Shown here in pieces: positions 1 to 2,278 of a stretch of DNA of 64,000 nt. Origin of the DNA: Desulfovibrio sp. A2 (GTDB taxonomy: Bacteria; Desulfobacterota; Desulfovibrionia; Desulfovibrionales; Desulfovibrionaceae); NCBI RefSeq assembly GCF_000226255.1, contig NZ_AGFG01000039.1, positions 43,440 through 107,439 on the forward strand, in the 5' to 3' direction. How positions within the stretch are numbered: position 1 is the stretch's first letter; each line of letters begins with the position of its first letter. The position numbers and the translations under genes were made by a program. A model generated the notes under the pieces. The model was given only the letters and a program-made list of their open reading frames with translations, was not told where the DNA came from and made no database searches.

Positions 1-654
1 GGGCATCTGGGCATAGGCGTGCACGGCCCCGGCATTGATGCGGAACGGACGTGCGGCCACGTATTCGTTGTGCTCGGTCTCGGCATGCACCAGGAAGGTG
101 AACGCGCTGGAATTGCCCACCAGCATGCCCTGCCCCCGGCGCAGCATGGACATGGTGTCCACGCACACCCGGTGGCCAAGGCCCACGTTCTCCACCGCCG
201 TGACCACGGCGGGGGCAAGGTCGATGCAACCCTGCGACAGCTTGAGATCGGCCACGATGGACTTCAGTTCCCCTGCGCCCTCGGGCAGCACCACCACGGT
301 GGCCACGCCCCGCTCCAGAATGCCCGCCGCAAGGCGCGCCTCGGAAAGGTCGGCCACTTCCACGGCCACGTTGTCCGACTGCGCCAAAAGATTCTCCACC
401 GGAATGATCTCCCACCCGCGCGCCAGCACCACGGTTTCGCCCCGCGCCAGCCGCGCGGCGGCGTCCTCTTCGTCGGCCTTGGCCGACAGCGCGATGGTCA
501 CGACGTCCTCGTCGGCCAGCACCCGGCACCGGGCCAGCGCCGCCACCGAATCCACCTGCGCACGCGGCACGATGATGCCGTCCACGCCCGATTCCAGCGC
601 CAGGGTCACCAGGCCCTTGTCGAAAGGCACGCTCTTGAAAAGAATGGTCCGCAT
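1..654 (-). CDS. 3-dehydroquinate synthase II (AroB'-type), 3' end cut by the window edge
   Basis: This enzyme would convert 2-amino-3,7-dideoxy-D-threo-hept-6-ulosonate (ADH) to 3-dehydroquinate by NAD-dependent oxidative deamination, the second step of the archaeal-type entry into aromatic amino acid synthesis. The first 218 residues are visible and the C-terminus lies beyond position 1. Residues 158-177 read GLGHRVCVDTMSMLRRGQGM and are followed by LVGNSS and FLVHAE, a run I recognise as diagnostic of this family and not of classical AroB. The ATG at 654 is chosen because a GAGGGG Shine-Dalgarno lies just upstream. It sits 326 bp downstream of the ADH synthase gene, which makes its substrate, so the two are probably one transcript. 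By analogy with related genomes, further aromatic and trp genes are likely to follow outside the window; that part is inference. Confidence 0.9.
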   Translation of the reverse strand, partial: MRTILFKSVPFDKGLVTLALESGVDGIIVPRAQVDSVAALARCRVLADEDVVTIALSAKADEEDAAARLARGETVVLARGWEIIPVENLLAQSDNVAVEVADLSEARLAAGILERGVATVVVLPEGAGELKSIVADLKLSQGCIDLAPAVVTAVENVGLGHRVCVDTMSMLRRGQGMLVGNSSAFTFLVHAETEHNEYVAARPFRINAGAVHAYAQMP

Positions 655-980: not shown

Positions 981-1778
981 CTAGTCGCCGACGAGAGCCA
1001 TCGCCTGCTCCACATCCCAATCCTCATGCACCAGGCCGCGCAGGGCCTTGACGAGGGCGGGGGTGCGTTCGTGCTGAAAGATGTTGCGGCCCACGGAAAG
1101 ACCAGCCGCGCCAGCGCGCACCGCGTCGTGCACCATCTGCAGGAACGACCGGGTGGAATCCAGCTTGGGGCCGCCCGCGATGACCACGGGCACGCAACAG
1201 GAGGCCACCACGTGGGCGAAGCTGTCCATGTCGCCGGTGTAGGCCACCTTGACCACGTCGGCGCCCAGTTCCACGCCCACGCGGGCGGCGTGGGCCACCA
1301 CCTCGGGGTCATACTCGTTCTTGATGCGGGGGCCGCGGGCGTACATCATGGCCAAAAGCGGCATGCCCCAGTCGTTGGCCACGGTGGCCACGCGGCCAAG
1401 GTCGGCCAGCATGTCGCGTTCGGTCTCGTCGCCCAGGTTCACGTGCACGGACACACCGTCCGCGCCGTGCTTCAGGGCGTCTTCCACGGTGGCGACCAGG
1501 GTCTTGGCGTTGGGGCGGGGGGAAAGGGAGGTGGATGCGGAAAGGTGCACGATGAGGCCCACGTCGCGGCCGCCCTCGCGGTGGCCGCAGCGCACCAGGC
1601 CCTTGTGCATGAGCACGGCGTCCGCGCCGCCTTCGGCCACCTGGTTCACGGTTTCGCGCATGTCCACAAGGCCGTAGATGGGCCCCACGCTCACCCCGTG
1701 GTCCAGCGGCACGATGACGGCACGCCCGGTTTTTCGGTTGAAAATGCGCTCCATCCTGATTCTTTTGCCGATTTGCAT
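981..1778 (-). CDS. 2-amino-3,7-dideoxy-D-threo-hept-6-ulosonate synthase (ADH synthase, AroA'/DhnA-type aldolase)
   Basis: This class I aldolase would condense aspartate semialdehyde with a deoxyketohexose phosphate to give ADH, the first step of the DAHP-independent route to 3-dehydroquinate. The 265-aa length matches the family. VPLDHG (Asp26), MMYARGP (Tyr146) and [10 protein letters not shown] (Schiff-base Lys177) are the expected active-site segments. The frame is open much further upstream, but the ATG at 1778 has an AGGGGA ribosome-binding site and begins exactly where family similarity begins. The gene is the first of the aromatic operon. It is preceded at 2001-2181 by an aromatic-codon leader peptide and attenuator hairpins, so expression is probably set by charging of tRNA-Tyr, -Phe and -Trp. 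A fructose-bisphosphate aldolase role is the main alternative, but the adjacent AroB' gene argues against it. Confidence 0.9.
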
Positions 1779-2000: not shown

Positions 2001-2043
2001 AAAAAACAGAAAGGGGCCGCCGGCTTTTCGCCCGCGGCCCCTT
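2001..2043 (-). terminator. attenuator terminator of the aromatic operon
   Basis: Read on the minus strand, a perfect 10-bp stem (arms 2034-2043 and 2011-2020) has a loop that can extend by three further pairs. It is followed at once by TCTGTTTTTT (2010-2001). This is a textbook intrinsic terminator, but it lies between a leader peptide and the first structural gene, where it would stop nearly all transcription unless regulated. Its 5' arm and loop also pair with an upstream segment (see the antiterminator entry). Confidence 0.88.
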
Positions 2044-2103
2044 GAGTCTTCGTGTGTTTACACCTTCGTCAGATGCTTACGCACGCTCCATGCGGCCACG
2101 GGC
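2030..2103 (-). promoter_or_regulatory. antiterminator pairing segments
   Basis: The minus-strand segment 2103-2094 (GCCCGTGGCC, leader codons 27-30) is complementary over 10 positions, with one G-U pair, to 2039-2030 (GGCCGCGGGC). The second segment contains most of the terminator's 5' arm. Forming this helix excludes the terminator. The first segment lies just after the Tyr/Phe/Trp codons, so a ribosome stalled on those codons leaves it free, while a ribosome that reaches the stop codon covers it. This matches the classic 2:3 versus 3:4 switch of trp and phe attenuators. The mechanism is inferred from the sequence, not tested. Confidence 0.8.
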
Positions 2104-2181
2104 TTCTCCATAGCTAAAAAAGTACCAAAAGTAATAGTTGGTACGGAAAGCGGTGGTGAAGGTGGCGGAGGTGGAAAGCAT
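2077..2181 (-). CDS. aromatic operon leader peptide (34 aa)
   Basis: This short frame starts at an ATG at 2181, with an AAGGA ribosome-binding site 12 bases upstream, and stops at TAA 2077-2079. Residues 16-24 read YYFWYFFSY: four Tyr, three Phe and one Trp within nine codons, far beyond chance in this genome. It ends 34 bp before a strong intrinsic terminator and about 300 bp before the ADH synthase gene. Its job would be to sense starvation for any of the three aromatic amino acids by ribosome stalling, so that the antiterminator forms and the operon is transcribed. Most leader peptides sense one or two amino acids; one covering all three suits a gene set for the common pathway. The peptide itself probably has no function. 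Confidence 0.88.
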   Translation of the reverse strand: MLSTSATFTTAFRTNYYFWYFFSYGEARGRMERA

Positions 2182-2248: not shown

Positions 2249-2278
2249 AACGTACGCCCGCCCCGCGAAAGCTGTCAA
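2249..2278 (-). promoter_or_regulatory. predicted sigma-70 promoter of the aromatic operon
   Basis: On the minus strand a perfect TTGACA (-35, 2278-2273) is followed after 18 bases by TACGTT (-10, 2254-2249), which matches the consensus at only three positions. Transcription would start near 2242, giving a leader of about 60 bases before the leader peptide. The weak -10 makes the exact position uncertain. Confidence 0.5.

Follow-up and report, generated by a model that had tools for sequence, protein, structure and literature searches.

The window, a stretch of 64,000 nucleotides from Desulfovibrio sp. A2, begins within an aromatic amino acid operon that reads on the minus strand, and a short open reading frame and a terminator hairpin precede the operon's first gene. 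The features of this region are as follows.

1..654, minus strand: 3-dehydroquinate synthase II (DHQS II, AroB'), second gene of the operon, cut by the window edge (NF002628, 602 bits; PF01959)
981..1778, minus strand: ADTH synthase (ADTHS, archaeal-type AroA'), first gene of the operon (TIGR01949, 436 bits against a cut-off of 299; PF01791)
2001..2043, minus strand: intrinsic terminator, hairpin plus T tract TTTCTGTTTTTT, -29.6 kcal/mol
2013..2024, minus strand: segment 4, 3' arm of the terminator, from folding
2030..2041, minus strand: segment 3, common to the antiterminator (2039-2030) and the terminator, from pair counts over 68 loci
2103-2094, minus strand: segment 2, 5' half of the antiterminator, GCCCGUGGCC, in leader codons 27-30, a 10-bp complement of segment 3
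2136-2110, minus strand: control codons 16-24 of the leader, YYFWYFFSY, read directly, the cluster conserved in relatives
2181..2077, minus strand: leader peptide ORF of 34 codons, MLSTSATFTTAFRTNYYFWYFFSYGEARGRMERA and a stop codon, read directly, with leader and terminator recurring at 96 of 120 usable loci
2197-2193, minus strand: ribosome-binding site AAGGA, 11 nt upstream of the leader ATG, read directly
2249..2278, minus strand: candidate promoter, TTGACA (2278-2273) and a weak second hexamer TACGTT (2254-2249), spacer 18 nt

Because the window stops within the second gene, 19.5 kb of the same contig beyond it were analysed as well. The operon has twelve genes in one direction, ADTHS-DHQSII-pheA-aroA-tyrA-trpEGDCFBA, and so covers ADTHS, DHQS II, CM-PDT, EPSP synthase, TyrA and TrpEGDCFBA, which is every terminal branch of the pathway. 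Ten of the twelve products pass Pfam gathering scores. The TrpF call has NCBIfam matches under the cut-off and the TrpA call is based on the ORF only; TyrA, TrpE and TrpC fall below the stricter NCBIfam cut-offs, though the correct families rank first. The start of AroB' is placed by its family match (NF002628 begins at residue 26 of a long ORF). An operon that makes Phe, Tyr and Trp fits a leader with codons for all three.

Over all 64 kb, on both strands, a scan for small ORFs enriched in a single amino acid or in aromatics, with a terminator after them, returns the leader ORF and nothing else. Its best run of 12 codons holds 8 aromatic residues, where 40 shuffles of the upstream region reach a maximum of 5, and all three Phe codons in the cluster are TTT, the rare form in this operon (12 TTT vs 110 TTC). 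The leader is presumably translated in this genome; AGGA lies 10 nt before the leader ATG in three of four aligned relatives. The TTGACA/TACGTT pair may serve as the promoter of the leader transcript: TTGACA is identical in all five aligned Nitratidesulfovibrio-type sequences, and a promoter consensus scan of both strands returns nothing above threshold. A stretch of about 25 nt upstream of the leader ATG (window ~2187-2211), which includes the window's own AAGGA, is missing from four close relatives.

In the terminator stem (2043-2011), 10 outer pairs (AAGGGGCCGC/GCGGCCCCTT) are separated by a G.G mismatch from 3 inner pairs. Its T tract occupies 2012-2001; many relatives have longer uninterrupted T runs immediately 3' of the stem, unlike the window. 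Segment 3, the 5' arm of this stem, also pairs with segment 2 over 10 bp, so that antiterminator and terminator are mutually exclusive. The 181-nt RNA folds with z = -5.2, and none of 200 shuffles is equally stable. The initial annotation had described a 34-codon ORF with a ribosome-binding site, a YYFWYFFSY codon cluster, a mutually exclusive 10-bp antiterminator whose 5' half lies in codons 27-30, and a position ahead of an aromatic-pathway operon headed by AroA'/AroB'. These all agree with the coordinates, the family matches and the downstream genes given above. Its 10-bp terminator with a T6 tract stands as to stem and T tract, with the correction that T6 is located 6 nt beyond the G+C stem.

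ADTH synthase matches occur in 251 of 395 genomes of the phylum. Comparison was made over 121 loci: 80 from an ADTH synthase protein search (the best 80 of 147 candidates), 40 from the stronger phylum-genome matches, and the window itself. One of these (L075) is too short, leaving 120 usable loci. The pattern sought was a small ORF in which 12 codons include 5 or more aromatic residues, with a terminator in the next 90 nt. It is present at 96 of the 120, namely 71 of 79 in the set of the best 80 of 147, 24 of 40 phylum loci, and the window, close relatives not being thinned in the counts. The pattern by these settings is lacking at 24 of the 120, 16 of them among the 40 phylum loci. The other eight (L005, L030, L031, L036, L044, L058, L060, L078) belong to the set of the best 80 of 147 and are of several kinds. 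L005 has a complete leader and terminator displaced to -953 from the ADTHS match, which a duplication, an insertion or a faulty assembly might each explain; L030, L044 and L058 have the aromatic ORF and lack the terminator by rule; L031, L036, L060 and L078 have no leader, and no other operon gene was found adjoining ADTHS there. Going by record titles, the isolates that gave L031 and L060 also gave L038 and L042, and the latter two loci do have leaders. L071 and L072 have ADTHS without recognised operon partners, yet carry a full leader with three Trp codons (FSWYYWWY). At L008, where ADTHS is followed directly by trpEGDCFBA, the leader AFWFGFYWF has two Trp codons, another operon make-up with the same leader type.

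The mean of the best aromatic counts is 6.7, vs 3.4 for shuffled sequence; at 79 of the 120 loci the observed count is higher than in any of the 40 shuffles. With a stricter pattern rule applied to both strands of the best 80 of 147 loci (2.65 million bases counted over both strands), 51 matches fall upstream of ADTHS, in 51 of the 80 loci, vs 2 elsewhere, one of which is the displaced leader of L005. The reading first offered for this DNA would have been undone had relatives not conserved the aromatic codons or the two alternative helices, an outcome that did not occur in the Desulfovibrionales.

Pairing of segments 2 and 3 was counted at 68 loci from the best 80 of 147, 11 of 79 being omitted where the terminator arm does not match the search pattern. 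An average of 9.5 of 10 positions are paired, a count that is inflated in favour of the helix because segment 2 was chosen at each locus as the best complement within 110 nt. A few automatic segment picks are wrong (e.g. at L009 and L071) and were retained in the counts. At 42 of the 68 loci no more than 2% of 50 shuffles pair equally well; at the other 26 more shuffles did. One key position is informative: the bases in segments 2 and 3 are U-A at 48 loci, C-G at 14, U-G at 5 and C-A at 1, so that a pair is kept at 67 of 68, with mostly A in segment 3 where the leader has Cys UGU and mostly G where it has Arg CGU. In 47 of the 68 terminators this same base faces a mismatch, a flaw that antiterminator pairing at this position explains. 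On the tree the key position changed 5 times in segment 2 and 7 times in segment 3, giving 4 independent pairs, of which a mean of 2.5 change in the same direction and none in the opposite one (median p 0.25, not significant); with only 4 independent pairs, covariation cannot reach significance. As formal proof of the antiterminator, covariation was set aside: the direction is right and the independent changes are too few.

In the more distant families of the phylum the aromatic codons and the terminator are kept, and the antiterminator follows only in part. At 10 of 24 loci the best helix formed with the terminator arm is better than expected from shuffles (p<=0.05); six of these ten helices lie past the leader stop codon, and L121, among the other four, is a close relative. 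A clear antiterminator starting within the leader is found at 3 of 23 distant loci.

The geometry of stalling was modelled by masking a ribosome footprint, of a size taken from general knowledge, codon by codon, and folding the RNA as transcribed just short of segment 4. When the A site lies at any of codons 16-22, the modelled probability of the 2:3 helix is 0.99-1.00; it drops to 0.70 at Tyr24 and 0.39 at codon 25, and does not exceed 0.03 between codon 26 and the stop. Once the full hairpin is present, the model at equilibrium favours the terminator (P(3:4) 0.92) regardless of where the ribosome is, so that the decision has to be a kinetic one. If the ribosome is left out altogether, the antiterminator is predicted to form while segment 4 is still to come (0.99), which counts against simple default termination. 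Across loci, geometry was scored for 64 of the 68 leaders used for composition, and the composition and geometry counts omit L033 (wrong ORF automatically chosen), L074 and L076 (lone gene copies). The equivalent of segment 2 begins inside the leader ORF at all 64. A stalled ribosome at a mean of 93% of cluster codons leaves segment 2 free to within 3 nt, and a ribosome at the stop overlaps segment 2 at 51 of 64 loci (by at least 4 bases at 49, and not at all at 13). In the close relatives L001-L004 the ribosome at the stop masks only 4 of the 10 segment-2 bases.

The mechanism we propose would run as follows. RNA polymerase would start upstream of 2181, with a ribosome translating the leader behind it. 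While charged tRNA-Phe, tRNA-Tyr and tRNA-Trp are plentiful, the ribosome would reach the stop codon and cover part of segment 2, segments 3 and 4 would pair, and transcription would end at 2001. Should any one charged aromatic tRNA run short, the ribosome would stall in codons 16-22; segment 2, left free, would capture segment 3 before segment 4 is made, and the whole operon would be transcribed. The element has what leader-peptide attenuators have: an ORF with a ribosome-binding site, a cluster of end-product codons, a terminator and an antiterminator that excludes it; release of the antiterminator strand by a stall and its masking at the stop are seen in the model only. The parts, their conservation and their mutual exclusivity come from sequence and comparison. 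Apart from a segment 2 shifted into the coding sequence, the layout is the classical one, and the element is very probably a ribosome-mediated attenuator of the classical type. As a transcription attenuator of this kind for the whole aromatic operon, we give the element a probability of roughly 0.88.

Intrinsic terminators between genes are common, and the promoter scan leaves the leader transcript with nothing above threshold, so the same DNA might hold an ordinary terminator beside a chance ORF, with no translational regulation at all. This is very improbable given that 51 of the 53 pattern matches in the best 80 of 147 loci fall upstream of ADTHS, that both the cluster and the place of segment 2 inside the ORF are conserved, and that the pairing is kept where most terminators are mismatched; the in-locus control, the shuffles and the comparison led us to reject it. 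Gram-positive aromatic operons are frequently controlled by T-boxes, and the element might instead be a T-box or metabolite-binding riboswitch sensing aromatic amino acids or their tRNAs directly. What is conserved, however, is a peptide-coding cluster, and Rfam gives no gathering-score match at the leader: by Rfam 15 only a tRNA in the window reaches the gathering score, the five matches at E<=1 in the leader region are all far under theirs, and eight related loci return only a cobalamin riboswitch and a tRNA, with nothing at the leader. These searches reject a T-box, a riboswitch or a leader already in Rfam, and we consider direct sensing by RNA the remotest of the alternatives.

A more serious alternative keeps the same build and differs in what is sensed: only Phe and Tyr (or one of them) would matter, the Trp codon would be a passenger, and Trp would be sensed before trpE. 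Phe and Tyr codons are near-universal, occurring together in 67 of the 68 leaders, with 64 distinct peptides among them, from the best 80 of 147 (Phe, Tyr and Trp in 54, Phe and Tyr in 13, Phe and Trp in 1). The Trp codon, usually single, is missing from 13 of these 68 and from 12 of 23 distant leaders (all three in 11, Phe and Tyr in 12). The AroR leader of Corynebacterium glutamicum, with Phe-Tyr-Phe, is reported in the available text to answer Phe limitation only (PMC11802643), and an apparent Trp-only attenuator does lie ahead of trpE in the present operon (see below). Against a passenger Trp codon, the model keeps segment 2 free when the ribosome stalls at Trp19, and Trp is in the leader at 15 of 15 operons with trpE vs 25 of 34 without (Fisher p = 0.04; 49 loci scorable of the best 80 of 147, values for L033, L044 and L063 entered by hand), an association that is weak since trpE changed only 3 times on the tree, giving 1-3 independent contrasts. 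The idea that the Trp codon tracks the trp genes has no weight after tree correction and is kept as a hint only. On balance sensing of Phe and Tyr alone, or of one of them, appears rather unlikely, and the leader would probably respond to each of Phe, Tyr and Trp, its sensing of Trp being likely.

Within the operon, about 4 kb beyond window position 1 on the same contig (L082:12236-12400), a tyrA tail WWWRSHTERGGVRPS with its stop codon is followed by a terminator before trpE. In the window genome tyrA ends QWWWRSHTERGGVRPS and stop, and the terminator (-28.7 kcal/mol) begins 24 nt on. The region was surveyed at 52 loci where trpE lies no more than 600 nt from tyrA, all of them Desulfovibrionales by title or order except L010 and L020, with close relatives included and four loci (L123, L136, L138, L139) omitted as repeats or misaligned. 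A terminator lies between tyrA and trpE at 35 of the 52, comprising 33 of 41 with a WWW tail and 2 of 11 without one. The remaining 17 include four (L166, L171, L190, L191) with a hairpin, by eye, that has a shorter or offset T tract, and six (L016, L023, L121, L133, L135, L170) with AWW- or TWW-type tails, no terminator, and trpE at -49 to +8 nt; at the last seven no hairpin was seen by eye.

At this second site segment 2 falls either in the codons that follow WWW or immediately beyond the stop codon; it varies by genus, with segment 3 changing to match: GGAGTGCG/CGCGCTCC, GAGAAGTGC/GCACTTCTC, CGGGGAGGATA/TATCCTCCCCG, GGGAGGACC/GGTCCTCCC and GGGACGCGGC/GCCGCGTCCC, all chosen as best complements. 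For the window genome the stall model puts the antiterminator at 0.75 with the ribosome on the WWW codons and at 0.00 when it is close to the stop, and leaving the ribosome out gives a value as high as at WWW; of 9 loci tried among the 35, 8 fit and L179 fits poorly. Single-duplex shuffle tests of the tyrA-tail antiterminator are mostly not significant, and the case for it is made by its position, by the many different yet complementary segment pairs and by the stall model. Together the C-terminal WWW codons of tyrA and the terminator ahead of trpE resemble a second attenuator inside the operon, one that would read Trp alone. The rph-pyrE attenuator of E. coli is a precedent in that the end of an upstream structural gene is its translated leader, as the tyrA tail would be for an internal attenuator. 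That system answers UTP via polymerase pausing, whereas the tyrA tail provides Trp codons and would answer charged tRNA-Trp.

A set of 30 trpE loci comprises 6 linked to tyrA, 11 unlinked loci of Desulfovibrio type and 13 more distant. A free-standing WWW or WW leader, most often of the form GWWWR..RGGDVRA and stop, precedes trpE at 10 of the 11 unlinked Desulfovibrio-type loci, and was not recovered at the eleventh (L132). These leaders (L124-L131, L134, L137) resemble the tyrA tail of operons still holding trp genes. Among the more distant loci a Trp-rich small ORF precedes trpE at 12 of 13 (not at L147), the trpE-leader ORFs being counted with no shuffle control. Of 49 loci at which a trpE beside tyrA was looked for and not found, 22 still have the WWW tail (9 of the 49 are from distant families with no Trp there, and a few contigs end too soon); because the tail persists with no adjoining trpE, its role in TyrA may have come first. 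We think it probable, with somewhat less assurance than for the leader as an attenuator, that two attenuators are nested, the leader reading Phe, Tyr and Trp and gating all 12 genes, the tyrA tail reading Trp and gating trpEGDCFBA, and that a free-standing GWWWRxxxRGGDVRA leader took over before trpE once the trp genes had left in Desulfovibrio.

A classical aromatic attenuator senses a single end product for its operon; each of the E. coli trp, pheA and pheST leaders (trpL and pheL among them) reads one amino acid. The ilvGMEDA and thrABC leaders of E. coli carry codons for several end products of one operon, and the present leader is like them in this respect, theirs being branched-chain amino acids and Thr/Ile, not aromatics. 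The trp, pheA and pheST attenuators are described, in the available text, as a leader ORF with cognate codons and exclusive antiterminator and terminator, with biosynthetic genes downstream (PMC11802643). All of this is shared by the element ahead of ADTHS. Unlike the trp, pheA and pheST elements, it has Phe, Tyr and Trp codons in one leader, before the common pathway and three branches, and its segment 2 is inside the ORF, ahead of the stop codon. The same source describes AroR of C. glutamicum, which controls aroF by ribosome stalling and is reported to answer Phe, not Tyr (PMC11802643). There too a leader with several aromatic residues controls the pathway entry enzyme; the available text mentions no Trp, the phylum is another, and the gene controlled encodes DAHP synthase. 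Here the first gene encodes ADTH synthase (TIGR01949), so no leader before a DAHP synthase gene is found. The uORFC-13-1 motif of Acholeplasma, a short ORF with Phe codon(s) beside a terminator upstream of aroF (PMC8632094), is similar in having a short ORF and terminator before the first pathway gene, and differs in phylum and enzyme and in that Phe alone is named in the text available.

Table 7 of Song et al. 2005, drawing on Merino's web database, gives a putative attenuator before D. vulgaris aroA'>aroB'>aroQ-pheA>aroF>tyrA>[trp operon]; the paper also comments on aroA'-aroB' (PMC1173090, available text). The gene order is the same and the organism a close relative, so the attenuator tabulated in 2005 is very probably the same element. 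It is only listed there: for the aroA'-aroB' operon the available text describes neither a leader peptide nor which amino acids are sensed, and mentions neither conservation nor a second attenuator (PMC1173090). The Rfam attenuators named in the available text of one survey are limited to His, Leu, Thr and Trp (PMC3766115), and another leaves aromatic, tryptophan and leader peptide unmentioned in the text available (PMC545781). PMC1173090 aside, a search of the open-licence literature by title and abstract found no Desulfovibrio leader peptide of such a kind. The initial annotation's suggestion of novelty is thus narrowed, an attenuator ahead of the D. vulgaris operon having already been tabulated, and would hold for the leader peptide, which the available text of that paper does not describe. 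What looks new, by the literature covered, is the three-amino-acid aromatic leader within a proposed two-tier system, and the tail of an enzyme gene serving as leader peptide looks like the most novel part.

If confirmed, the element would be a single leader polling the tRNAs of all three aromatic amino acids on behalf of a supraoperon of the archaeal-type ADTH route, one that the Desulfovibrionales conserve and that other families of the phylum share more loosely. If the nested reading is true, the end of an enzyme gene doubles as a sensor of tRNA-Trp, and the tyrA tail, once confirmed, would be a clear case of an enzyme's coding sequence acting also as an amino-acid sensor. The two tiers would then amount to a layered logic, any aromatic and then Trp, within one transcript, and the splitting of the trp genes from the operon in Desulfovibrio would offer a natural experiment on the origin of leader peptides.
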